DNA of 57,992 nucleotides. Origin: Planctomycetota bacterium. GTDB lineage: Bacteria > Planctomycetota > Planctomycetia > Pirellulales > Pirellulaceae. The DNA lies in contig JAGWWZ010000003.1 of assembly GCA_018970165.1 (NCBI GenBank), positions 1-57,992 on the forward strand, written 5' to 3'. The notes under the pieces were generated by a model. That model searched no databases. It was not told the origin of the DNA and worked only from the letters and a program-made list of their open reading frames with translations. Both the position numbers and the translations under genes were made by a program. Every line of letters starts with the position of its first letter. Positions within the stretch are counted from its first letter, which is position 1. This document shows positions 3,768 through 32,049 of this stretch, piece by piece.

Positions 3768-5711
3768 ATGAAGACTTGGACCACTCTCGCGTTGCATGGT
3801 CCCAATCGCTGGTCTTCCCGAAGCGTTTTGGAGCTTCATGTTGTACCGGATCTCGCTTGCCAGCCCGCACCTGCGGCCCTTTCTCGCAACGCAGCGGACG
3901 TACTAAAGGATTTTCTGGACTCTGGGAACTACACAACGACTCATCCCCAGAGTATCAACGTAGCGACACGCGTTCTCGATGAAATCCGCAGCGCATCGAC
4001 CCGCAGTGAACTCTGGGGGGCCCTCGCGCATTGGATGACCGCCATGGCCGGTGTCCCCTCCCGTTTCCTCTCCCCTCCCTCCTTCAAGTCCGCTTCGTCC
4101 CTTCTGTCCTCTTCGTCCCTTCCGTCCTTTCCGTCCTCTTCGTCCTTTTCCCCGATCGCCGCTTTGGAAATGGAAGAGGAACTCCTCAGTCATCGCGCAT
4201 TCGATATGGCTCGCCAGATGATCGAGGCGTTGGAATCGCGTACCGAATTCCCGATCGCTGTCAAATTCCGTGAGTTATTCGATTACGCAGACGATGTCCG
4301 ATTGGGTCCCAGTTCGCGCGCGATCCTCGAGGCGGCGACAGAGCGAGGCATCCCCTATTATCGGATGACTTCCGGGTCATTGTGTCAGCTCGGCGAGGGG
4401 CGATGGCAACGCAGAATATGGACTGCGGAGACCGATGCTACCAGCGCGATCGCCGAATCGATCGCCAGCGATAAAGATCTCACCAAACGATTGCTGCGCA
4501 ACGTCGGAGTACCGATTCCTTTGGGACGCATGGTCACTAGTCCCGAGGATGCATGGGCAGCCGCTCAAGAAGTCGGATTCCCTGTAGTAGTCAAACCTCG
4601 CAACGCCAATCATCAACGCGGTATTTCCATCGAGCTGACCGAACAAGAGGAGATCCTTCGCGCCTATCACTGGGCGATCGAAGATGGCCAAACTCAAGAT
4701 GTTATGGTCGAGCAATTTGCAAGGGGCCAACATCATCGACTGTTGGTGGTCGGCGACTCCCTGGTCGCAGCCAGTCGCGGTCACGTAGAAACTGTCACCG
4801 GGGATGGTATCCACACCGTCGAACAACTGGTCCATCGGTTGAATCAGGATCCGCGGCGTGGCGAAGCCTACACTGACCCCCTCGGGGTTGTCAAAATAAT
4901 TGCCGCCACCCATATCGAACTAGCCAAACAAGGCCTAACGGCCGATTCGATTCCCGAAGAAGGAAGAGTCGTGCTAGTCCAAAGGACTGGCGATTTAACA
5001 ACTGACTGCACCGAAGTTGTCCATTCTGAAACCGCTCGACAAGCAGTCTTGGCCGCGCGCGTGGTCGGATTAGACATCGCTGGACTCGATGTTCTTGCGG
5101 AAGATATCTCGCGGCCGTTAGCACAGCAGCGGGGTGCGGTTGTCGAGGTGAATGCGGGGCCCTCTCTTTCCCCGCACGTAGCCCCCCTGTTTGGCGAACC
5201 GCGGCCGGTGGGTCGAGCCATCATCGACATGCTTTTTCCCGCAGGTCGCCAAGCCCGCATCCCGATCACATGTATTGTTGCTCCCCAGCTCCCTGCCGCA
5301 CTTGGTCGATTGGCTGAGTGGCACGAGCAAACCAGTGCAACGCATGCGACCGCAGGTTCGGTCGGCGCCGATGGCATACAAGTCGGATCCGAGTGGATCC
5401 CTCTTCCCGAAGCCGCCATTCCCAGCCGCGTTCAATCCCTTCTGTCGCATCCGCATCTCGATGCTATGGGAGTTGCTTGCGAGTTAAAATCGCTTGCCGA
5501 CCAAGCGTGCCCCGTGCCCCGCATCGATCGCTTGATCATCGTTTCACCTCCCGAAGGACGGGAGTCTTCCATGGTTTGCGATGATGCATGGCGGACGATC
5601 GGTCACGCGATTCATCCCACAACCGAGATCGACTGGAACAACACACCCGACCCGCTCCGAATCGCGATCGAGTCGATGTGGAGCGAACTCGACGCATCTG
5701 CCATCCACTAG
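3768..5711 (+). CDS. Cyanophycin synthetase-like ATP-grasp ligase with degenerate, truncated Mur-ligase region
   Basis: A 647-residue protein. Residues 1-170 resemble the cyanophycin synthetase N-terminal domain (LHGPNRWS at 9-16), interrupted at about 101-130 by a Ser/Pro/Phe low-complexity insert. Residues 205-490 are an ATP-grasp domain: DKDLTKRLL at 235-243, Lys276 in VVVKP, and VVEVNAGP with Glu460 and Asn462. The full family continues with a Mur-ligase domain opening with a TGTNGKTT P-loop. Here RIPI at 497-500 is followed by TCIVAPQLP, and only about 150 residues remain; DGIQVG at 535-540 and the following helix still look like the eroded family pattern. It probably joins amino acids at the ATP-grasp site only, resembling CphA2-type enzymes in architecture. 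No cyanophycinase or full CphA is nearby. Confidence 0.75.
   Translation: MKTWTTLALHGPNRWSSRSVLELHVVPDLACQPAPAALSRNAADVLKDFLDSGNYTTTHPQSINVATRVLDEIRSASTRSELWGALAHWMTAMAGVPSRFLSPPSFKSASSLLSSSSLPSFPSSSSFSPIAALEMEEELLSHRAFDMARQMIEALESRTEFPIAVKFRELFDYADDVRLGPSSRAILEAATERGIPYYRMTSGSLCQLGEGRWQRRIWTAETDATSAIAESIASDKDLTKRLLRNVGVPIPLGRMVTSPEDAWAAAQEVGFPVVVKPRNANHQRGISIELTEQEEILRAYHWAIEDGQTQDVMVEQFARGQHHRLLVVGDSLVAASRGHVETVTGDGIHTVEQLVHRLNQDPRRGEAYTDPLGVVKIIAATHIELAKQGLTADSIPEEGRVVLVQRTGDLTTDCTEVVHSETARQAVLAARVVGLDIAGLDVLAEDISRPLAQQRGAVVEVNAGPSLSPHVAPLFGEPRPVGRAIIDMLFPAGRQARIPITCIVAPQLPAALGRLAEWHEQTSATHATAGSVGADGIQVGSEWIPLPEAAIPSRVQSLLSHPHLDAMGVACELKSLADQACPVPRIDRLIIVSPPEGRESSMVCDDAWRTIGHAIHPTTEIDWNNTPDPLRIAIESMWSELDASAIH
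4093..4147 (+). repeat. In-frame 18-bp tandem repeat inside the cyanophycin synthetase-like gene
   Basis: An 18-bp unit beginning CTTCGTCCCTTC occurs at 4093-4110 and 4111-4128 with one mismatch, followed by partial 9-10 bp units to 4147. The surrounding bases 4051-4150 are a biased C/T tract. Because 18 is a multiple of three, expansion keeps the frame and writes a Ser-rich loop into the N-terminal domain. It looks like slippage-generated sequence. Confidence 0.75.
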
Positions 5712-5720
5712 GAACGCATC

Positions 5721-6221
5721 ATGGCCAAAAAAGGACCGGCATCGGTCGACGAGTATTTAGCGGCCTTGCATGATGATCGTCGAAGCGCTTTGGAAGCCGT
5801 TCGTAAAGTCATCCTCAAATCGATTCCGAAAAAGATCGAGGAGGGGATCCAATACGGGATGATCGGTTATTACATTCCGCACAGCGTTTATCCCAGTGGT
5901 TATCATTGCGATCCCTCGCAACCTGTGCCCTACATCGCCCTCGCATCGCAAAAGAACTACATGTCCCTGTACTTGATGTGCCTGTACATGCGTTCGGATT
6001 GGAAGGACGCCTTCGAGTCCGCCTATCGAGCTACCGGCAAGAAACTCGACATGGGGGCCAGTTGCGTACGCTTCAAACGCTTGGAGGATTTGCCACTCGA
6101 AGTGGTTGGCAAGGCGATCAAGCAAGTGTCGCTCAAGGACTACATCGCTTGCTACGAATCGACTCTCGATACGCGGTCGATGCGAGCCAAGCAACGATCG
6201 CGACCGAGCAAGCCCACATAA
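5721..6221 (+). CDS. DUF1801 (YdhG-like) family protein
   Basis: A 166-residue cytosolic protein starting [16 protein letters not shown], 9 bases after the ATP-grasp gene, so probably cotranscribed. The pattern of an N-terminal helix, [12 protein letters not shown], a [16 protein letters not shown] core strand and a basic tail fits DUF1801/YdhG, a small frataxin-like fold whose members have been linked to iron handling in some bacteria. No catalytic residues can be assigned. Its last 70 bases overlap the 3-prime end of gltX on the opposite strand. The exact role is unknown. Confidence 0.75.
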
Positions 6222-7717
6222 TCGAAGACTCCCAGCCCGGTGCTCTTGCCGGTCAGGGCTACGCGAAGTGCATTGATACACACGCCGAGCTTGAGCCCTT
6301 TCTCTGTTGCGTAGTCTTTGATGAGAGGTTCCAGAGTGGCTTGATCTAAGACCGCGCTCTTTTCGATCAACGCGCGAATCCCCCGGAGCGCATCGATCGC
6401 GCCGGGCTCATTCTTGATCCGTTTGTTTAAAAGATCTGGGTCGATCGCCAATTGATTATCGTCGCAGAAGAGTTCATCGAACTGCAAGATATCGCCCGCC
6501 ACTTTGATCCGATCGCCAGCCGCCGCGACCACGCGCGTCAGGTACTCCGACGACGAACATGGAGGAGGCGTTTCGATCCAACCTGCTTGTTGCAGGAAAG
6601 GAAGGACCATAGCGACCTTCTTCTTGATTTCCAACTGGCTCATCCATCGGGCTTGGAACGCCAGCAGTTTCTGTGGGTCGAAGGATGCGGGCGCCTTGTT
6701 CACTCGTTCGAGCGAAAAGTGCTTGATCGCATCCTCGAGGGTAAAGTGTTCGGTGCTGTCATCGAGCGACCATCCGAGCAAGAGCAGATAGTTCAAAATC
6801 GCCCCAGGAAGAAATCCCGTCTCGCGATAGAAGTCGACCACGACAGGATTGAAGGTTTCGGGTGTCGTCTGCAGATTGGCTTTCTTGGCGATGGTATCGC
6901 CGAGCTGAAAAAGGGTGGCGAAATCCTTCTGCTTGAGATACTTATCGAGTTTTCGTTTGCTCAGTTTCGCAGTCCCACCCGGCTCGGCAACATACGGAAG
7001 GTGCGCGTAAATAGGGATTGGATAGCCGAGGCTTTGCGCGATGAAAATCTGGCGAGGGGTATTGGGAAGATGCTCTACTGCCCGGACGACGTGCGTGATG
7101 GCGAAATCGTAGTCATCGACCACACTCGCTAGATGATATAGGCAGTTACCGTCGGCGCGCTGAATGACATGGTCCTGTTCATCGGTCCATTCAAAGCTGC
7201 ATTCACCACGAATTTTATCTTGGAAAACGCATTGCCCCTCGCGCGGTATCTTGAGACGCACAACGCTCGTCCGTCCCTCGGCGATGAATTGAGCCTCTTG
7301 ATCGGGATCGCTAGCCATGAAGGAGCGATCGTAGATAAAGGCTTTTCCTTCCTGTTCGGCTTTCGCCTTTGCGGCAGCGATTTCCTCCGGCCTGGCGAAA
7401 TCTCGGTAGGCGAATCCTGAACGCAAAAGTTGTTCTACCGCTTCTTGATAGCGTGCAGATCGCTGCGATTGGAAATAGGGTTGATAGGGGCCACCGACTT
7501 CGGGCCCCTCGTCCCACTGGAGTCCGAGCCATTTGAAGCCTTCGAGGATTGGCTGGAGGGCGGCTTCGACGTTTCGAACTTGGTCGGTGTCGTCGATGCG
7601 CAGCAGGAACTGGCCCCCGGACTGTTTGGCTAACAGATAGTTGAACAATGCGGTTCTGACCCCGCCGATATGGAGGTAACCGGTGGGACTTGGAGCGAAA
7701 CGGGTACGTATCGTCAT
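6152..7717 (-). CDS. gltX: Glutamyl-tRNA synthetase (GltX)
   Basis: A 521-residue class I aminoacyl-tRNA synthetase that charges tRNA-Glu (and possibly tRNA-Gln) in the cytoplasm. The N-terminus shows the HIGH-type motif in [10 protein letters not shown] and the KMSKS-type motif is KLSKRK in mid-protein. The C-terminal anticodon-binding region ends with the family pattern [19 protein letters not shown]. The start codon overlaps the mtfA stop by 4 bases (ATGA), so translation is coupled. It is the last gene of a seven-gene minus-strand run and its end overlaps the convergent DUF1801 gene by 70 bases. Confidence 0.95.
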
Positions 7718-8493
7718 GATCTATCCATCGCGTGCGCGAGGTCGGTGACATAAAAATCTTGGAGCAGTTCGTACAGCTCGGGATGGTACTCTCGCAGATC
7801 CCAAGGGATCTGAAAATAGCACTCGGAGGCTACCGCAAAAAATTCGCTTGGATGGGTCAACCCATAATCATCGATGACGATCTCCTCCCCTTGCTCGACC
7901 ATTTCGCGAGCTAGGTGAAATTCTGTCTCGAAGTCTTCCCGCCACTGCTCTGCATCCAAGCCAGGAGGCAACGGTGGGATACCATCCGCCTTGGGATCGT
8001 CGCACATATCGAGCTGGTGCGCGAACTCGTGAAGAACGATGTGGTCGCCATCGTTGTCGCGATGGATTGCTCTTTGGATATCGTGCCAATTGAGAGCGAT
8101 GGGACCGCGGGCAACGGTTTCGCCGGAGCGATAGTACTCGCCCCCCAAACCATGATGCAGATCGCCCCCTTTGGAGCGCGCTTTGTAAGGTCTCGGATAA
8201 ACCAGGATCGTACGTGTAGACGGAAAGGTCCATTCGGGATAAGCCAGAACCAAGAGTGACGCGTTCAAGGCGATGGTTTTTTTGACCTCGTCGTTGATGC
8301 GAAATCCGTTGCAGCCCTCCCAGTGCTTGCTGGCGATGAATCGCTTGGCCCATAGGACCATCGAGCGACGTTTCGAATCATCCAACCAGCATGCTTGCCA
8401 GACATACCGGTCCAACTCTTCCAGGTCTTGTGGTTCGACGTTGTCCGACGATGGTCGCCTCCCCCACCAGTTCCACCAAGCGCTAATCGGCAT
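7714..8493 (-). CDS. mtfA: MtfA-type zinc metallopeptidase (M90 family)
   Basis: A 259-residue protein from the ATG at 8493, chosen because a strong ribosome-binding site (GGGAGGGA) lies just upstream; longer in-frame starts have none and would run deep into the preceding gene. HEFAH at 155-159 is the zinc motif, and [13 protein letters not shown] near the C-terminus holds the third-ligand region of the M90 family. The length matches Escherichia coli MtfA (about 265 residues), a cytosolic peptidase that binds the repressor Mlc. Whether that target exists here is unknown. It overlaps the upstream gene by 11 bases and gltX by 4. Confidence 0.88.
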
Positions 8494-8890
8494 CGCTCCC
8501 TCCCGGCGGATGCAGCGATGGATCGCGGATCGCACCATAGATCGCTGTAGGTGTTGTCCAGTTTTCGTTCGCGACGTCATGAACTCGCAATGCGGAATCG
8601 TATGCTCCCGATTCGGGTGCATCATCAGTCAATGCCGTCATCAACCGGTTCCACATCTCCGGGATCAGGTCTCCTTTGAGCTCCAGGTATTCAATCGCTC
8701 CGTCTCGATCGTATACCATGCCGTCGAGTTGGTACCGGCGACCATCGGAAACAAACGCCCACACAAAGGATCCATCGAGTTCAATGTACATTCCATGCCA
8801 TAGGCTCAGGATATCGACAAACGACTCGAACGATGTTGATAGCCGTTTTCCTTCGTGCGCATAGACTCGCAGAAACATAGACGGGATCAC
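8483..8890 (-). CDS. Conserved-looking small hypothetical protein
   Basis: A 135-residue soluble protein I cannot assign. The GTG at 8890 overlaps the stop of the permease gene as GTGA, which favours translational coupling; an ATG at 8878 would shorten it by four residues. It contains a mixed region with several Trp/Tyr (LWHGMYIELDGSFVWAF, GRRYQLDGMVYDRDG) and an acidic C-terminus. The central pattern looks like a small beta-sheet fold. It has no signal peptide or membrane segment. Its position between a metal transporter and MtfA is the only functional hint. Confidence 0.65.
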   Translation of the reverse strand: MIPSMFLRVYAHEGKRLSTSFESFVDILSLWHGMYIELDGSFVWAFVSDGRRYQLDGMVYDRDGAIEYLELKGDLIPEMWNRLMTALTDDAPESGAYDSALRVHDVANENWTTPTAIYGAIRDPSLHPPGGSDAD

Positions 8891-10218
8891 GAACTTTCGG
8901 GTGGAATATGCTTGCCGTGGGGGTCGGTGGGTGCGGCGCCGATCACTCGATCTAGCTCATCTCGCATCTTGCTATCGGTGTAATGCTCGAATGACTCAGC
9001 TTGAGCGTGCAGACGCGGATCGCTGACTCCGACCTCGAGGCTTAGATACTGCTCCCACTGGCGGTGGGATCGGATCAGGTTTTGTGCATACCGCAGTCCC
9101 TCGTCGGTCAGTAGGCATGCACCATCCCACGAAGCGACGTAGCCTCGCTGGACCATATCCCGAACCGCTGCAGCGATTTTCGATGGATGGGATTTCAGCT
9201 TCTTAGCGATTTCACTTTGGGTCAATCCTTGCGGTTGGGTCAATCCTTGCGGAGGATGGGTTTGCGATTCGGTTTGGCGATACAGCAGAGCCAAGATATC
9301 TTCGCTCAGGATACGGCGAGCCAATCGCTGTCTGGCAAGCCACTGAACCACGATGCCCCCTTTGCCGCTCCCGAAAATCGCCATGACGAGGAGCACTCCT
9401 GAAACGAGAGCCATCATCGCTGCAGAGTTTGCACTTTTGAAGCCAAACATATGGGGAATCGTGATGGCCGCGATATGTCCAAAAAGAGCGACTGCGATTG
9501 CCGCAACCAGACTGAATAGGATCATGTTCGACAGTCGCGAACAACACAAATAAGCGATCGAAGGTGGGACGATGAGCATCGCGATTACCAGAATGTTTCC
9601 CACTGCACGAAAAGCAACAATGCAGGTGACCGCTACCATCGCGGCGAGCAAGTAATGAAAAAAGGCTGGCGAGATTCCCTGCGCAGCAGCCAAACCGGCA
9701 TCAAAGGTGCTGAGGGTCCATTCCTTGTAGAGCACTACGATCAACACAGAGTTTAACAAGAAGATGCACCCGAGTTCCAACACGACACGCGGAACGGCAC
9801 CTAGCGGCGTCGCCACGGTATCGAGAACGATGGTTTCGAGATTGCCATACAAGACGCAGGAAGGATCGAGATCGACATGATCGGTCCGGGCGATCATCAT
9901 CAATCCGAGGGCGAACATCGCCGTAAACACGACGCCGATCGCAGCGCTTTCCTCAACTCGTCCGTAGCGCCGAATGAACTCGGTGAGCCAAACGGTGAGT
10001 ACACCGACAATTGCGGCTCCCACCATCGCAATCCATGTGCTGCGCGACCCGGTCCACAGATAAGCTGCGGCGATACCTGGCAATACCGCATGACTGATCG
10101 CATCCCCAATCAAACTCAAACGACGCAGGACCAGAAAGTTACCGACCAGGGCGCACGACATCGCGCACAGCGCTCCAGCAAGCACCATCCAGCCATCGAC
10201 TTGCCAGTACCAATCCAT
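8887..10218 (-). CDS. Metal ABC transporter permease fused to an MntR/DtxR-like domain
   Basis: A 443-residue protein. Residues 1-290 are an ABC-3 family (ZnuB/MntB type) permease with about eight hydrophobic segments and the family loop LIGDAISHAVLPG at 36-48. Residues 300-443 are a cytosolic winged-helix plus metal-binding domain of the DtxR/MntR type. By alignment with Bacillus MntR, Asp307, His385, Glu408, Glu411 and His412 correspond to Mn ligands D8, H77, E99, E102 and H103; the E11 equivalent is Ala310. A Glu rather than Cys at 408 suggests manganese rather than iron. No ATPase or binding protein is adjacent, so those parts must lie elsewhere. The fused domain may gate import by metal level; DNA binding from the membrane is less likely. 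Confidence 0.85.
   Translation of the reverse strand: MDWYWQVDGWMVLAGALCAMSCALVGNFLVLRRLSLIGDAISHAVLPGIAAAYLWTGSRSTWIAMVGAAIVGVLTVWLTEFIRRYGRVEESAAIGVVFTAMFALGLMMIARTDHVDLDPSCVLYGNLETIVLDTVATPLGAVPRVVLELGCIFLLNSVLIVVLYKEWTLSTFDAGLAAAQGISPAFFHYLLAAMVAVTCIVAFRAVGNILVIAMLIVPPSIAYLCCSRLSNMILFSLVAAIAVALFGHIAAITIPHMFGFKSANSAAMMALVSGVLLVMAIFGSGKGGIVVQWLARQRLARRILSEDILALLYRQTESQTHPPQGLTQPQGLTQSEIAKKLKSHPSKIAAAVRDMVQRGYVASWDGACLLTDEGLRYAQNLIRSHRQWEQYLSLEVGVSDPRLHAQAESFEHYTDSKMRDELDRVIGAAPTDPHGKHIPPESS
9217..9252 (-). repeat. Perfect 18-bp tandem duplication inside the permease-regulator fusion gene
   Basis: TTGGGTCAATCCTTGCGG is present twice in perfect tandem (9217-9234 and 9235-9252). On the coding strand it writes PQGLTQ twice (residues 323-334), in the loop before the second helix of the winged-helix domain. 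It keeps the frame and looks recent, since the two copies are identical. Confidence 0.9.
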
Positions 10219-10227
10219 GGAAGTCCC

Positions 10228-10989
10228 TTACTTGCTGACCATGTACCCGACATCGTCCAACGGCTTGATCCAGACGTTGCGGAAGCGGGTGGGGCTCCCG
10301 TGATCTTGGAGAAAGACCGGTCCGATCTGTTTAGCGCGCATCTCAACCTTGATCTTATCGAGATAGGGGGTGTTTCCGTAGCGGAATGGATGATAGACCG
10401 AACGAGGTTCTTCGAACTGAGTGTTGCGCTGCACGCACTGTCCGTTGAGCCATGCAGTCACCGACCCAGGAGTCACGATCTTGCCTGTTTCGTCTCTGCG
10501 CGGAGCTCGATAGCGAATATCGTACACCTGCCACTCTCCAGGTTTTCGCGAAGCGTTGACCAGCGGCGGAGCGAAGCCGTACAAGGCACCCTCATCTTGC
10601 TCGGTGGGGGATGCGACTCCATAGGAATTGAAGATTTGTAGTTCGTAGTTTCCATGGAGGTACACGCCGCTATTCCCTTCGGCGATTTCGGAGACCATGA
10701 ACTCGACATGCACATCAGCGTCCCGGAAATGCCATTCGGAGACAATGTGATTGACCCGCCCTTCGCTGCGAGTGGAGACCAGGCATCCGTCTTCGATAGG
10801 CCAATTGATAGGGCCACCCTGCATGCTTCGGAATCGAGCCGTAGTGCCATCGAACAAGACGACGGCGTTTTCGGGAGGAGGGACCGGAAGCACCGACTGC
10901 TCCGGCTGAAAAGCATTGTCGTCTTGTCCCCAAGCGATCGAGCTCGAGAGAATCAGACACAATGCGAGGATGCGATTGAGATCAAGCAT
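10228..10989 (-). CDS. Secreted DUF1080 protein (3-keto-disaccharide hydrolase-like, concanavalin-type fold)
   Basis: A 253-residue protein with a signal peptide (hydrophobic 7-18, cleavage near AWG). It shows the DUF1080 pattern: VVLFDG near the start of the mature chain, GNSGVYLHGNYELQIFNS in the middle, the GEWQVYDIRYRAP strand, AWLNGQ and IGPVFLQDHGSPTRFRNVWIKPL at the end. DUF1080 is abundant in planctomycetes and some members hydrolyse 3-keto-glycosides. The substrate here is unknown. Its start overlaps the EboE-like gene by 8 bases and the permease gene follows 9 bases later. A second DUF1080 gene lies at 37822-38574. Confidence 0.88.
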   Translation of the reverse strand: MLDLNRILALCLILSSSIAWGQDDNAFQPEQSVLPVPPPENAVVLFDGTTARFRSMQGGPINWPIEDGCLVSTRSEGRVNHIVSEWHFRDADVHVEFMVSEIAEGNSGVYLHGNYELQIFNSYGVASPTEQDEGALYGFAPPLVNASRKPGEWQVYDIRYRAPRRDETGKIVTPGSVTAWLNGQCVQRNTQFEEPRSVYHPFRYGNTPYLDKIKVEMRAKQIGPVFLQDHGSPTRFRNVWIKPLDDVGYMVSK

Positions 10990-12211
10990 GATGTTCGAAT
11001 CCGGTTGGTTGAACTTTGGCCTTTAGTCTGCCGTGCAGCCATTGTAACTCGCGAGCGATCCCTTGGTGCAGATGTGGTTCACGCAACGATTCTGGAAGGA
11101 CTCCCCATGCATAGGTTTCGACTTCGAGATGCATTTCCGGGGAACCGAAGTCTTTCTGCACCATCATCAAGTCCAAGAACCGATCGATCTCGTCTTGGGT
11201 CGATTCGATTCTTCCCCAGGACGCAATGTCGATGGGGACGTGAAAATGGATCCGCCATTCGTTGAGCAACCGCTTGTCTTCCGGCCCCGAGATATCTGCG
11301 AGCAACCCCGGCAGGTCTTCTACGAGTTGGCTTGTTCCGTCCGAATAGCGGACGAGTGTTTGGTGCAGATAGCGATCCTCAGCGAATTGACCGATTTCTT
11401 GCAGCGCGGCGACTCGGCCCTCCGAATCGAGTTTGTTCCATGCAACGCGGATTGCCGAGGAGATCTGCACCTTGCCGATGCGGATCCCTTCGCTGCGACA
11501 CGCGACGAATTCCGCTTGTTGATCTTCGGCCATCACCGCCGCGTGGCAGACATCATGGCACATGGTGATGTAGGTTCGCGCGAGCTCGGCTCGCGAAGCA
11601 CCCAGCGTCCGCTCGGAAAGATGGTCGATGTAAAAACGTCGCAACGATGCAGTATCGGTGATCGCGCAACCGGGCTCTGGTTCGAGGGCCAATACGATCC
11701 TTCGACCGGTGGATTCATACAGGTGGGAGAGTTGTTCCGCGATCGTCATCAGTTGATCCGCCGCCGAGCGCCATTGATCCGATGTCGGTTGAGGTGAACC
11801 CCACGCGATCGGCAGAGTCGAAATCGAACCGAAGCGACCCGGCTCCAACAGTTGATCGAGCAAACGGATCAGGTCTTGGGTGTACTTCAAGCGTGAAGGC
11901 TCCCACCATGTGGGCCGATAGACTCGATGCTTGACCACCGCGCTGTGGAAATCTCCTTGAGGAAAGCCATTGAAAGTGTAGGGAACCAATCCCATCTCTC
12001 GCAAAGAATGACGGATGCGATCCAAGTTCGGAGTCTCAATCGCCTCGCGGACCGCGTTCTCGGAAAACCAAAGACCGACCGGCAGGGCTCTCAGTGCCAG
12101 CGACTGCCGAACGGAATACGCGTGAGTCCTCAGATTGCTGAGGATCGCATCGACATTCACTCCTGCATGGACATTGGTACAGTAGCCGACGATCGGCGCC
12201 GGTTCACTCAT
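10982..12211 (-). CDS. eboE: EboE-like TIM-barrel protein (metabolite traffic family)
   Basis: A 409-residue protein starting at the ATG at 12211, preceded by AAAGGAGC; an ATG at 12238 lacks such a site. The fold is a xylose-isomerase-like TIM barrel. Family-specific stretches are GYCTNVHAG at the N-terminus, PYTFNGFPQGDFH, ALEPEPGC, MCHDVCHAAV, IHFHVPI and EVETYAWGVLP, which I recognise as the EboE pattern. Ebo proteins accompany export of prenylated or aromatic secondary metabolites in cyanobacteria and algae, normally with EboA-D and EboF. None of those partners is in this window. It overlaps the pseudouridine synthase gene by 8 bases and the DUF1080 gene by 8 bases. Confidence 0.78.
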   Translation of the reverse strand: MSEPAPIVGYCTNVHAGVNVDAILSNLRTHAYSVRQSLALRALPVGLWFSENAVREAIETPNLDRIRHSLREMGLVPYTFNGFPQGDFHSAVVKHRVYRPTWWEPSRLKYTQDLIRLLDQLLEPGRFGSISTLPIAWGSPQPTSDQWRSAADQLMTIAEQLSHLYESTGRRIVLALEPEPGCAITDTASLRRFYIDHLSERTLGASRAELARTYITMCHDVCHAAVMAEDQQAEFVACRSEGIRIGKVQISSAIRVAWNKLDSEGRVAALQEIGQFAEDRYLHQTLVRYSDGTSQLVEDLPGLLADISGPEDKRLLNEWRIHFHVPIDIASWGRIESTQDEIDRFLDLMMVQKDFGSPEMHLEVETYAWGVLPESLREPHLHQGIARELQWLHGRLKAKVQPTGFEHHA

Positions 12212-13214
12212 CTTTGCTCCTTTTATTCCTTCTCCCATCGGTTCGTTTAGAGTCTTCCTGATGAGTCGATTGCCGTCCCTTTTCCCGCGATACGGCCCGC
12301 TGGAAGTCGCGGAACTCCTGAGGCCAGGGAGCTTGAAAGGAGAGAACTTCGCCCGAAGTTGGATGCATTAGCGACAGTGTCTCCGCGTGCAGAGCGATGC
12401 GTCGATGCGGCCATGCGTTGTGCATTGCTGTCTCCTTGCGATATCGCGGATCACCTAGGATCGGATGGTTGGCTTCCGCCAAGTGGACACGGATCTGATT
12501 GCGGCGACCTGTCTCCAAGCGAACTTCGACCAAGGAAGCGTCGTTCCAGACAACCTTGGTCACATAGTGCGTGATCGCCAGTTCTCCCTGGGCGGGATCC
12601 TGGACCGAGAAGCGATTCAAGTCTGCATCGGTTGCGAGGTAGCTGGTGATGGTACCGCTAGGAGGCTCCATCGCCCCCGCGATCAAAGCAATGTACTTGC
12701 GCTCCGGTTTGCGGGCCGCAAACTGATCGCGGATCGCTTCGGCTGCTTGCAAACTCTTTGCGAAGACCAGAACACCTGAAACATCTCGATCCAAGCGATG
12801 TACGCAGTAGACCTTGGCCTTCGGGTCGGAACTTTTGAGACGCCTTTCCACCGAAGAGATCAGTGTCCGCGCCTCGCCGTATTGAGTAGGGACCGTCAAC
12901 AAGCCTGCGGGCTTGACCACCACGCACAGGTCCGCATCATCGTATAGGAACTCGATCGCCGAACGATTCGCCTGGCGTTTAGACACGCGTGGGGAAGCGA
13001 CCGGCATGGGGACCCAATCGATGTCCAGCACATCCCCTGGCTCGACACGTTCCCGCACTCGCCGGCAAATACGCTGGTTGATTCCAACGCATCCGTTTTC
13101 TATCAGCCACTGGCTGTGGCTAGCCGGAATCCCCAGTAAATTTTGCAGGACACTTCCCAGCGAACGTGCGGGGAATGGAATCGAAGTTGGAACAGTAAGC
13201 GATTTGTGCGACAT
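12204..13214 (-). CDS. RluA-family pseudouridine synthase
   Basis: A 336-residue cytosolic enzyme that isomerises uridine to pseudouridine in structured RNA, most likely 23S rRNA. The N-terminal 80 residues resemble an S4 RNA-binding domain (GCVGINQRICRRVRERVEPGDVLDI). The catalytic motif is VHRLDRDVSGVLVFAKS with HRLD containing the Asp nucleophile. RRNQIRVHLA and HPILGD are the C-terminal family motifs. The last 30 residues are basic (QEDSKRTDGRRNKRSK). Whether it is RluC or RluD in specificity cannot be told. It is the first gene of the seven-gene minus-strand run. Confidence 0.9.
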   Translation of the reverse strand: MSHKSLTVPTSIPFPARSLGSVLQNLLGIPASHSQWLIENGCVGINQRICRRVRERVEPGDVLDIDWVPMPVASPRVSKRQANRSAIEFLYDDADLCVVVKPAGLLTVPTQYGEARTLISSVERRLKSSDPKAKVYCVHRLDRDVSGVLVFAKSLQAAEAIRDQFAARKPERKYIALIAGAMEPPSGTITSYLATDADLNRFSVQDPAQGELAITHYVTKVVWNDASLVEVRLETGRRNQIRVHLAEANHPILGDPRYRKETAMHNAWPHRRIALHAETLSLMHPTSGEVLSFQAPWPQEFRDFQRAVSREKGRQSTHQEDSKRTDGRRNKRSKDE

Positions 13215-13388
13215 ATCGCCTATTAGGATAACTCACAATACCGAAATTGGCTCCTGGAAATTGAACCCTTCCCGATCGATCGATTCTTGCAATGCCGATC
13301 ATGCGACGATATCGTGATGCGGTTCGTTCAGTTGTTTTCCTTTGGCTTTTCCCCGTTTTCAACAACTATTTTGACGGGTCTTTCGATC

Positions 13389-13727
13389 GTGTCCGACGCA
13401 GAACCTCAAGCATCCCCTTCGCAAGCCGCATCGGCCCAAAGTCCCTCGCCAGCAAGAGGAAAATCGTCCAACAAATCTCTGATTGTCCTGGCTGTTTTAT
13501 TCGCCCTATCCGGACTCTCGGTCGTAGTGGTCCCCCAGATCCTTCAAGGCATCTACTACCAAGAAGAGGAAGCCAAGCGCGACGAAAATCCAGTGATCGT
13601 CGGAACACGGACCGATCTGAAACCTCCACCGGGCTTATCGAATCCTTTCGCGGGAACGCCGCCTCAGCAAGTTGGAAACCCTGCGGAGGGTGGAGAGAAC
13701 TCCGAACCGAACCCAAGTCAGAAGTAA
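13389..13727 (+). CDS. Small single-pass membrane protein of unknown function
   Basis: A 112-residue protein if the GTG at 13389 is used. The N-terminus is Ser/Ala/Pro/Gln-rich, followed by one transmembrane segment (SLIVLAVLFALSGLSVVVV) and a polar Pro/Gly/Asn-rich tail. An ATG at 13317 would add a second hydrophobic stretch; I prefer the shorter form because the extension looks untidy, but this is uncertain. The frame differs from that of the dioxygenase gene beginning 29 bases later, with which it is probably cotranscribed. Family unknown. Confidence 0.55.
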   Translation: MSDAEPQASPSQAASAQSPSPARGKSSNKSLIVLAVLFALSGLSVVVVPQILQGIYYQEEEAKRDENPVIVGTRTDLKPPPGLSNPFAGTPPQQVGNPAEGGENSEPNPSQK

Positions 13728-13756
13728 CCATTAACCAATACTCTGCGGAGCATCCC

Positions 13757-14341
13757 ATGGCGACCGTCCATATACCCGAGCAAAATCGCAACCTGACCGA
13801 ACACGATCAGATCATCGATTTCCTCAAACCGTTCGGAATTTGGTTTGAGCGTTGGCAAGTCGCTGGCCGACTCGCCGAAAATGCAACCGATACCGATATC
13901 CTCCAAGAATACGCACCGGAAATTGAGAAGGTAAAAGCCTCCGGCGGATACGTCACCGCAGATGTGATCAATGTCCATGCAGGGACACCCAACCTCGATG
14001 CCATGCTCCAGAAATTCAACAAAGAGCACACACACTCCGAAGACGAAGTTCGATTCACCGTTGAAGGCCGTGGAGTATTTCATCTTCATCCTGAAAATGG
14101 ACCTGTCTTCAGTGTCACTGTCGAAAGCGGAGACATGATCAATGTTCCCTGCGGTATGAAGCATTGGTTCAACCTGTGCGATGATCGCCGAATCCGTTGT
14201 ATCCGTTTCTTCGAAGATCAAGCTGGATGGACACCTCATTACATCGAACAAGGAGTGCACAGCGACTACAGCCCCATGTGCTTTGGAACATCCTACGTTT
14301 CGGGTTCCAACTCCGACGCCAAACCCTTGATCAAGACCTAG
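13757..14341 (+). CDS. mtnD: Acireductone dioxygenase (methionine salvage)
   Basis: A 194-residue cupin enzyme that cleaves acireductone in the methionine salvage pathway. The start is the ATG at 13757; the same frame is open for 465 bases upstream, but that sequence is not homologous and overlaps another gene. Metal ligands are visible as His91, His93, Glu97 and His136 (HTHSEDE and GMKHWF), matching the family H-x-H-x3-E...H pattern. The bound metal (Fe or Ni) decides the product and cannot be read from sequence. The mtnC gene follows 6 bases later. Confidence 0.93.
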   Translation: MATVHIPEQNRNLTEHDQIIDFLKPFGIWFERWQVAGRLAENATDTDILQEYAPEIEKVKASGGYVTADVINVHAGTPNLDAMLQKFNKEHTHSEDEVRFTVEGRGVFHLHPENGPVFSVTVESGDMINVPCGMKHWFNLCDDRRIRCIRFFEDQAGWTPHYIEQGVHSDYSPMCFGTSYVSGSNSDAKPLIKT

Positions 14342-14347
14342 TGCTCG

Positions 14348-15130
14348 ATGGTTCATGATTCCGCGGAAACCGGAATGATTCATCGCACCGCACGATGCGT
14401 GCTTCTCGATATCGAAGGGACTGTTGCCGATGTGCGATTCGTCTACGATGTCATGTTCCCTTTCGTGCGCCGGGAAGTGGCTGCCTTTCTCGCAAGCCAT
14501 TGGGAGGATGATTCCCTCAAGGAACCTCTGCTCCTCATCGCCGCTGAAAGTGGCCTGAGCACCACCGCAGACCCGTGGCGTCAATCGGAAGTTGATCGCA
14601 ACCACGCGATCGATAACGCGGTCGATGCTGTCAACCGACTGATGGATAGCGACAGCAAGACCACCGGTCTCAAGGCTCTGCAGGGCAGAATCTGGGAGTC
14701 GGGCTTCCGCTCCGGCACCCTGAGATCCGAACTCTTTGACGATGTCGTACCTGCCCTTCGCAGATGGCAAGAGGTTGGACTCGAACTACGAATCTATTCC
14801 TCCGGCAGCATCCTCGCACAGCAAATGTTCTTCGGACACACGACGCAAGGAAACCTGACGACCATGTTCGCCGCCCATTACGACACCACTATCGGCAACA
14901 AGAAAGAATCCATCAGCTATCGCCGAATCGCCGAAGACTGCAAACTCGAACCACACGAGATTCTTTTTCTCTCCGATGTCGCCGCTGAGCTGATCGCAGC
15001 AAACGAGGCTGGCATGCAGGCAATCGCATGTATCCGACCGAACAACGCGCCCTTGCCGGAATCCTACCAGGGGACAACGCTCGCCAGCTTCGATCAGCTC
15101 GAGATCTCGCTTCCCGACATGCGGTTGTAA
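14348..15130 (+). CDS. mtnC: Enolase-phosphatase E1 (methionine salvage)
   Basis: A 260-residue HAD-superfamily enzyme that enolises and dephosphorylates 2,3-diketo-5-methylthiopentyl-1-phosphate to acireductone, the substrate of the upstream MtnD. HAD motif I is LLDIEGT, motif II is IYSSGS, the motif III lysine is in IGNKKES, and motif IV is FLSDVAAE. The full length matches the family. An internal ATG at 14375 would trim nine polar residues and is possible. The MtnD-MtnC pair is cotranscribed; other salvage genes (mtnA, mtnB, mtnP) are not in the window. Confidence 0.93.
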   Translation: MVHDSAETGMIHRTARCVLLDIEGTVADVRFVYDVMFPFVRREVAAFLASHWEDDSLKEPLLLIAAESGLSTTADPWRQSEVDRNHAIDNAVDAVNRLMDSDSKTTGLKALQGRIWESGFRSGTLRSELFDDVVPALRRWQEVGLELRIYSSGSILAQQMFFGHTTQGNLTTMFAAHYDTTIGNKKESISYRRIAEDCKLEPHEILFLSDVAAELIAANEAGMQAIACIRPNNAPLPESYQGTTLASFDQLEISLPDMRL

Positions 15131-31613: not shown

Positions 31614-32049
31614 GTTTGATGTGCTGGTTAGAGGATGAATGACTCGGATACATCAAGTTTGCGGGTTGGCGAACGCATTCAGTCTGATCCATTTTGCGAG
31701 CGTGTCAAAGCCGCGAATCAGCAACTAAAGGTTTCCTGAGTGTCGAAGTGGCTGATTTTCAGAAAAGTTTTAGCAGATGCTACAAGTTCGCCCACGCGCA
31801 CCCGTGGTGGAAAAGGGACGCGGAATAGAAAAAACATCGATCCAATCATTTGCCGAACGAGAAATCGAGAGCAAGACTTTCGCAGTGCCTGGAAAAAGGT
31901 CGTGGTAGCGAAGCCCGCCGAGGTGTCGCGCTCGGTGAATGTGACTAAACGTTGTCACGCTCATAGGGATCATTTCGACTGCCATTCCTTTGCTGGTACG
32001 CGGAACGGATGCTTTGGATCACGGACGAGAATTGAAAAAAGGATTTACT
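31614..32049. other. 436-base divergent intergenic region
   Basis: Separates the M1 peptidase gene (minus) from the Cys-rich secreted protein gene (plus), so it must hold promoters for both. The strand ends with AAAAAAGGATTT before the ATG at 32050, which is a usable ribosome-binding site. A small inverted pair GTGAC...GTCAC is at about 31941-31958. An open frame at 31740-32117 has no coding look. Otherwise I see nothing specific. Confidence 0.4.

Follow-up and report, generated by a model that had tools for sequence, protein, structure and literature searches.

A DtxR-type metal-sensing domain fused to an ABC-3 permease of a Planctomycetota bacterium, and its probable role in metal feedback on an importer

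We analysed a stretch of 57,992 nucleotides from a Planctomycetota bacterium of the Pirellulaceae (assembly GCA_018970165.1, contig JAGWWZ010000003.1, positions 1 to 57,992), here called the window, and in it the gene permB, which encodes an ABC-3 permease fused to a DtxR-type metal-sensing domain. The open reading frame (ORF) lies at 8887–10218 on the minus strand, starts with the ATG at 10218 and encodes 443 amino acids (aa); the plus strand over this interval has many stops in the matching frame. A preliminary description of this DNA had read the ORF as a metal permease with a built-in sensor domain, which the ORF, the Pfam matches and a structural model confirmed, and had omitted the strand. 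Pfam assigned residues 11–281 to ABC-3 (PF00950; E 2.3e-42, 145.8 bits against a cut-off of 20.1) and residues 371–439 to Fe_dep_repr_C (PF02742; E 1.9e-16, above the curated cut-off), the metal-binding and dimerisation domain of the DtxR family. The DNA-binding families around residues 297–366 all scored under their cut-offs, the best being MarR_2 (E 0.0013), and PF01325 was not found; permB has no recognisable N-terminal DNA-binding domain of the DtxR/MntR regulators (PF01325 or another helix-turn-helix), and the predicted fold of this part is still winged-helix-like. Four segments can be placed on the minus strand: the membrane permease part (residues 1–283; 9370–10218); an unbroken helix that leaves the membrane, becomes helix 1 of the DtxR-type domain and bears D307 (residues 289–318; 9265–9354); a winged-helix half, which is the DNA-binding part in true DtxR proteins and is poorly conserved in the fusions (residues 330–371; 9106–9231); and a metal-binding/dimerisation half with H385, E389, H404, E408, E411, H412 and a DPHG motif (residues 372–440; 8899–9105).

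The single-chain AlphaFold2 model of permB, built from an alignment of 75 sequences, had a mean pLDDT of 93.5 and a pTM of 0.86. Its membrane part has the fold of a metal-importer permease and aligned, over model residues 1–292, with the PsaBC permease chain 7kyp_D (Z 31.4, rmsd 2.2, 264 residues). Residues 300–443 superposed on residues 3–137 of DtxR (2qq9; Z 18.8, rmsd 1.8 Å, 134 residues), so that domains 1 and 2 of a DtxR protein begin at about residue 300. From the Pfam and structural matches, permB is a permease–DtxR fusion, as in proteins of the YtgCR type, and we take it to be one of a pair of permease subunits in an ABC importer of the Psa/Mnt/Znu type, probably with Mn2+ and/or Fe2+ as substrate.

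The permB protein (P0001) was matched at E ≤ 1e-10 in 125 of the 146 genomes of the window's order, its own included, and not all of these matches are fused. We read as relatives 39 stretches from 38 genomes of the same order and 80 named loci (L152–L231). The latter were chosen by a scan with two patterns, one of which covers HRLWE around H385, and are the best 80; among the pattern matches listed (at least 594), 579 encoded relatives. The named loci are mostly metagenome-assembled genomes, and their labels, which may be wrong, include Planctomycetota, Phycisphaerae, Verrucomicrobia, Kiritimatiellae, Lentisphaeria, Desulfobacterial, Spirochaetal, Sumerlaeota and others. Each set of identical proteins entered the counts as one, and the ligand and segment counts exclude 8 of 118 permB proteins, which lack the metal half; this leaves 110 fused permB including that of the window.

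Next, we examined the putative metal site. The preliminary description had listed five conserved MntR ligands (D307, H385, E408, E411 and H412) and A310 in place of a sixth, a Glu, and all six residues were found at these numbers. In the model superposition D307 falls on Met10 of DtxR, and both the superposition and phmmer alignments bring H385, E408, E411 and H412 onto His79, Cys102, Glu105 and His106. By alignment and model, all five residues therefore occupy the places of a DtxR/MntR metal site. E389 and H404 take, by the same two comparisons, the places of DtxR Glu83 and His98, which we take to be ancillary metal ligands. These columns hold among the 110 fused permB: H385, E389 and H404 are invariant, E411 and H412 are present in 109 each and D307 in 108. 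The E408 position is Glu in 81, His in 11, Met in 6, Asp in 4, Ser in 3 and Thr in 1, plus others. The motif DPHGxxIP is near invariant (P433 in 110, H434 in 101), and a Trp three residues after the ligand His is found in 110/110 fused permB; the motif HRxWE, to which it belongs, is found in 0/25 stand-alone regulators. Position 310, the place of Glu11 in MntR, is Gly in 58, Ala in 48 and Ser, Lys or Arg in 4, and is never Glu.

According to a review of IdeR (PMC10317159, excerpt), the place of DtxR Met10 is taken in MntR proteins by Asp or Asn and that of Cys102 by Glu, and Glu11 is the sixth in the ligand list of MntR (PMC6860424, excerpt). As permB has Asp at the Met10 place and Glu at the Cys102 place, its primary site looks Mn-type. 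The earlier label 'MntR-like' holds for these primary ligands; it does not hold for Glu11, so that the six-ligand set of B. subtilis/E. coli-type MntR is incomplete in permB, nor for the extra DtxR-type positions that are present. Judged by its residues, the permB site is DtxR-type with MntR-type primary ligands, additionally retaining E389 and H404, and from them we infer both that the domain binds metal and which metal it would bind.

We observed that the join between permease and domain has a fixed length. Residue 284 and D307 are separated by the same 24-residue spacing in 110/110 fused permB, the helix 289–318 is 30 residues long and gapless in all of them, and the distance from the invariant Gly288, at the membrane exit, to the first ligand position is 20 residues in every case. 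The same Gly-to-ligand distance of 20 residues was found in the partner permease permA (described below), in 55/55 and in 26/26 proteins. The loop that follows the helix varies from 3 to 35 residues in permB and from 6 to 43 in permA. A helix of fixed length would presumably be needed neither for a flexible tether nor for a cleavage site. In DtxR, the N-terminal helix is conformationally coupled to the primary metal site (PMC10317159, excerpt), which makes this membrane-continuous helix a plausible transmission element. In the window protein the loop 319–333 contains, by eye, a perfect 18-bp tandem duplication (9217–9252) that gives a QGLTQP-QGLTQ repeat.

In relatives, permB is usually the last gene in the order binding protein–ATPase–permA–permB. 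We counted 74 operons, out of 87, in which a span of 9 kb holds binding protein, ATPase and permB and at least 1.2 kb upstream is shown, after removal of duplicates. Both permeases are fused in 60 of them, permB only in 5, permA only in 1 and neither in 3, and a fused permB without permA occurs in the remaining 5. In Rubripirellula obstinata CECT 8602 (L162), for example, a single operon encodes binding protein, ATPase and two permeases that are both fused. Five loci (L067, L068, L072, L073 and L074) have single fused permeases of 512–529 aa and no permA in the operon; the stretch after DPHG in these proteins resembles, by eye, the SH3/FeoA part of full-length DtxR.

permA, too, has a DtxR-like domain at its C-terminus, with a constrained set of residues of its own. 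At the position equivalent to D307 it has His in 43, Asn in 11 and Asp in 1 of 55 proteins, and the other positions (L162 numbering) are H419 (55), E423 (55), D438 (55), D442 (54), E445 (55) and H446 (55). This suggests, from the residues, a second kind of metal site (H/N, H, E, D, D, E, H). The winged helix of permA keeps an R-x-W motif (Arg in 53/55, Trp in 54/55). The match of the permA model to the fold, with Z about 10 and an rmsd of 3–5.6 for most DtxR/MntR rows, is too modest to lean on by itself.

The preliminary description had pointed out that no ATPase or binding protein lies beside permB, as is unusual for the family. None was found among the neighbours scanned (3768–13214), and no genome-wide match to either falls on the window contig; the permease is nevertheless no orphan, both partners being encoded on other contigs. 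Two ABC-3 permeases were matched in the window genome (5.2 Mb in 330 contigs; 95.9% complete): permB and a gene at C192:1927–2736, 1.4 kb from the contig end. Both carry PF02742. Its one ZnuA-family binding protein is at C78:21421–22233, and its best ATPase, at C240:6982–7554, scored 206.8 bits to AztA (model cut-off 220), the next scoring 112.5. The binding protein and the ATPase both match operon genes of the relatives, so the cognate partners sought by the preliminary description are located and all four importer components are present. In the stretches read around the C78, C240, C192 and permB genes no other component of the set was found, and each stands alone. The congener G133 (96% complete) has binding protein and ATPase together and permB elsewhere; no second ABC-3 permease was found there, which may reflect an assembly gap. 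The importer genes are scattered in the near relatives of the window genome.

We then compared the two halves of the domain. Mean pairwise identities (winged-helix half/metal half) were 0.217/0.457 for fused permB (n = 110), 0.230/0.468 for the 34 permB not chosen through the scan patterns and 0.304/0.462 for permA (n = 26, after 5 of 31 without the domain were left out). The corresponding values were 0.681/0.590 for stand-alone MntR (n = 19; one of 20 loci, L129, was unmatched by the motif) and 0.631/0.737 for stand-alone DtxR (n = 24; two of 26, L104 and L111, exceed 330 aa and were left out). The DtxR-like ORF of L111 (G017) has about 344–346 aa, and its long tail resembles, by eye, FeoA-type repeats. 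Among pairs, which are non-independent, with a metal-half identity of 0.70–0.75, the winged-helix identity was 0.27 for permB (11 pairs), 0.50 for permA (6), 0.77 for MntR (4) and 0.63 for DtxR (53), and that of permB was below those of MntR and DtxR in every metal-half bin where the latter have data.

Pfam gave a consistent picture. At E ≤ 0.001, PF02742 was recognised in 75/75 fused permB, 16/16 permA and 25/25 regulators beside such operons, whereas a DNA-binding-type family was recognised in 1/75 (PF25213), 0/16 and 24/25 (PF01325), respectively. Pro39 and Gln43 of the regulators contact bases (PMC10317159, excerpt); in the 110 fusions the equivalents are mostly hydrophobic (Leu 29, Trp 26 and Phe 10 for Pro39; Leu 36, Ile 11 and Val 10 for Gln43). 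In 25/25 close pairs listed, nonsynonymous divergence (dN) of the winged-helix half exceeded that of the metal half, and the ratio ranged from 1.6 to 5.7 (median 3.0) in 11 disjoint pairs hand-chosen from these. The ratio of dN to synonymous divergence (dS) per segment was dropped as evidence, many dS values being saturated and the close pair L216/L222 being reversed; dN alone was used. The DNA-reading half is weakly conserved relative to the metal half in the fusions.

Separate regulators accompany many of these operons. A stand-alone MntR-like (19) or DtxR-like (8) gene lies within 1.5 kb of 27 of the 74, a minimum count wherever the sequence shown ends before 1.5 kb, and both permeases are fused in 24 of these 27. 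The 17 intergenic regions between regulator and binding protein share a palindrome (width 20; score 229 against 114–119 in three shuffles; 15/17 at ≥12.9). An MntR-like operator precedes the binding-protein gene in 25/74 operons, 11 of them among the 47 without adjacent regulator, and 38/74 have an adjacent regulator gene and/or such an operator. Another protein can thus handle transcription in many relatives. The preliminary description had named, as speaking against its interpretation, a normal MntR with the same DNA targets combined with no effect of deleting the domain; a normal MntR with its own targets is found in many relatives and not in the window genome, and it weakens the idea of a membrane-bound regulator for those relatives, not that of gating. 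A simple swap of the fused domain for a separate regulator was considered and rejected; G053 fits it, but 24 operons with both permeases fused have an adjacent regulator. In G053 (L066), a complete operon with two domain-free permeases keeps a divergent MntR with its operator and forms a natural domain-free control.

Genome searches of the window genome and of G133 found no stand-alone PF02742 protein, and no MntR-like protein at E ≤ 1e-6. The stretches scanned near the four importer genes of the window genome contained no MntR-like operator; matches over score 9 in the scanned stretches were at window position 31767 and at L147:2520, each more than 18 kb away from the importer gene on its contig. 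An MntR regulon in the window genome was rejected, as the 33 pattern matches (18 exact) compare with 66 for the reversed control; it is also undercut by 17 of 20 sites lying inside called ORFs of ≥90 aa, some in duplicated stretches. The palindrome TGTAGCNNNNGCTACA (window 31769–31784) is an interspersed element with 33 matches at ≤1 mismatch (18 exact), against 2–8 (0–2 exact) in seven relatives; the sites examined were L240–L259.

The above comparisons point to metal-responsive gating of the importer, probably by the paired domains of permA and permB, to which we assign a probability of roughly 60%. What the fused domain senses would probably serve to restrain the pump itself and not to control gene expression. 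Metal that is abundant in the cytoplasm would bind at the D307/E408/E411/H412 and H385/E389/H404 positions; the metal-filled domains of permA and permB would pair as DtxR subunits do, the helix from the membrane exit to the first ligand would relay the change to the permease, and uptake would be slowed or stopped, that is, trans-inhibited. The pairing of the two domains and its inhibition of transport we infer by analogy. The preliminary description had offered direct gating or a membrane-bound regulator. Gating fits the comparative sequence evidence better, because the metal half is constrained, the DNA-binding half much less so, and the membrane join is of invariant length; the regulator idea is weakened in relatives. 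Its observation is confirmed, and its interpretation is partly supported. We consider the chances evenly balanced for a broader proposal, of a widespread importer class in which both permeases would have captured a DtxR repressor and made it a paired metal-feedback brake, a mixed dimer with two different metal sites and fixed-length helices to the pump, its DNA binding given up.

Several observations weigh against metal feedback on transport. Glu at the E408 position is present in just 81 of the 110 fused permB, and 2 of 26 permA domains (L061 and L079) lack most ligands; the permA model has a mean pLDDT of 85.5, with blocks of 57–76 in the metal half. At metal-half identities of 0.50–0.60, stand-alone DtxR pairs fall to a winged-helix identity of 0.36–0.38 (43 pairs), close to the 0.33–0.35 of permA. 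The winged-helix half of the fusions has diverged so far that its alignment is uncertain. The dN comparison covered the fused proteins alone, and dN/dS disagrees with it in L216/L222, with 0.063 for the winged helix and 0.222 for the metal half. The winged-helix fold is retained in all models, and the permB winged helix still scores as helix-turn-helix-like, the MarR_2 match being under the cut-off. The domain can also be lost: the metal half is absent from the 8 of 118 permB (one, L076, is cut by the contig end), and both permeases of G053 lack the fused domain. In L071 (G117) and L075 (G109), permB keeps a winged-helix-like stretch after the membrane part and has lost the metal half, the reverse of what feedback by the metal half would predict. 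Finally, with no stand-alone DtxR-family protein found in the window genome, the fused domain might regulate genes there. That the sole DtxR-family sensors found in this genome are the fused domains fits a transport brake and leaves room for a take-over of regulation.

It is possible, but unlikely, that cleavage frees the domain from the permease, so that it represses genes on its own in a metal-dependent way. The studied permease–DtxR fusion behaves in this way: in Chlamydia trachomatis YtgCR (CT069), YtgR is cleaved from YtgC and represses metal-dependently (PMC7755916, excerpt), and no stand-alone PF02742 protein was found in the window genome. Against this, the DNA-reading half is weakly conserved and is hardly ever recognised by Pfam in relatives, and separate regulators adjoin 27/74 operons. 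The join has no variable linker, its spacing and gapless helix being those of all 110 fusions, and a cut in the variable loop 319–333 would remove a ligand, because D307 lies in the helix 289–318. The conservation of ligands and segments and the Pfam results took weight from this explanation. An internal ATG start that would free the sensor domain was rejected; there is no conserved Met at residues 284–330, with at most 10 of 110 in any column, and 44 of 110 have one somewhere.

Still more doubtful is a repressor that stays uncut and binds DNA at the membrane, perhaps through the pair of permA and permB domains. The permA winged helix, with its conserved R-x-W, has diverged less than that of permB, the window genome has no stand-alone DtxR-family protein that we could find, and a membrane-anchored LacI is a precedent (PMC5599777, excerpt). 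However, Pfam found no DNA-binding match in 16/16 permA and 74/75 permB, and no MntR-like operator lies near the four genes of the window genome in the stretches scanned with an MntR-type pattern. There is a similarly slim chance that the domain has no part in regulating transport and accepts or buffers metal at the cytoplasmic exit, or serves dimerisation. The conserved metal ligands, which such a role would keep without DNA contacts, and the different residues at the permA ligand positions, which suggest a second kind of site, would agree with it, but the conservation of a complete set of DtxR-type ligands and of a helix of constant length probably exceeds what a buffer needs.

permB is placed within a same-strand run of unrelated genes. 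Upstream, on the minus strand and 9 nt before it, is a gene of the 3-keto-disaccharide hydrolase family (10228–10989; ORF and Pfam). Downstream, also on the minus strand, an ORF of 135 aa without Pfam match (8483–8890) overlaps the permB stop by 4 nt, and a homologue of it adjoins permB in L152, L155 and L056 (G133). The nearest named relative, L152 (labelled Pirellula; 77% identical), shares part of this run and has its permB in it. Elsewhere in the window (13292–15130), an acireductone dioxygenase (ARD) gene lies beside that of a HAD hydrolase and looks like a methionine-salvage pair.

Finally, we compared these fusions with known systems. The permease part resembles those of PsaBC, Mnt and Znu importers, and the window genome has a ZnuA-type binding protein and a matching ATPase; the PsaBC permease chain, however, aligns only to model residue 292 and has no counterpart of the fused domain. 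With DtxR, IdeR, MntR and SloR the domain shares the fold of domains 1 and 2, the metal-ligand positions and the Mn-type Asp/Glu of the primary site; it differs in being fused to the membrane, in lacking the SH3 domain and Glu11, in the loss of the DNA-contact positions and in the presence of HRxWE. The proposed logic resembles that of MetNI and ModABC, in which transport is shut off once substrate occupies a cytoplasmic regulatory domain that dimerises. There the domain is on the ATPase and the inhibition has been shown (PMC10710835, excerpt); here it is on the permeases, has a DtxR fold, and the inhibition is proposed. A literature search, at the level of titles and abstract openings, returned the chlamydial permease–DtxR fusion and nothing on gating by such domains, and the word 'DtxR' is absent from the main text of a 2023 review of transporter switches (PMC10710835). 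Permease–DtxR fusions are an already known kind, reported in 11 phyla (Thompson 2012, as cited in an excerpt of PMC5599777). Within the searchable literature, fusion of both permeases, a poorly conserved DNA-reading half, a lever of constant length and separate regulators alongside appear new, though double fusions may already be in print in the survey of Thompson et al. 2012.

The closest known system is YtgCR, a precedent absent from the preliminary description. It too is an ABC permease with a C-terminal DtxR-like domain, encoded in a ytgABCD operon with a binding protein, an ATPase and a second permease (PMC7755916, PMC5599777; excerpts). In these excerpts the repressor domain is described on YtgC only, whereas in the relatives studied here both permeases are usually fused (60/74). 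Set against YtgCR as described, the fusions here have a DNA-reading half of low conservation and a helical join of constant length, and a stand-alone MntR or DtxR gene is often adjacent. If the proposed feedback is correct, a domain of a transcription factor has found a new use as the allosteric valve of a transporter, Mn/Fe ABC importers are under direct feedback control, and YtgCR of Chlamydia may be one branch of a wider group.

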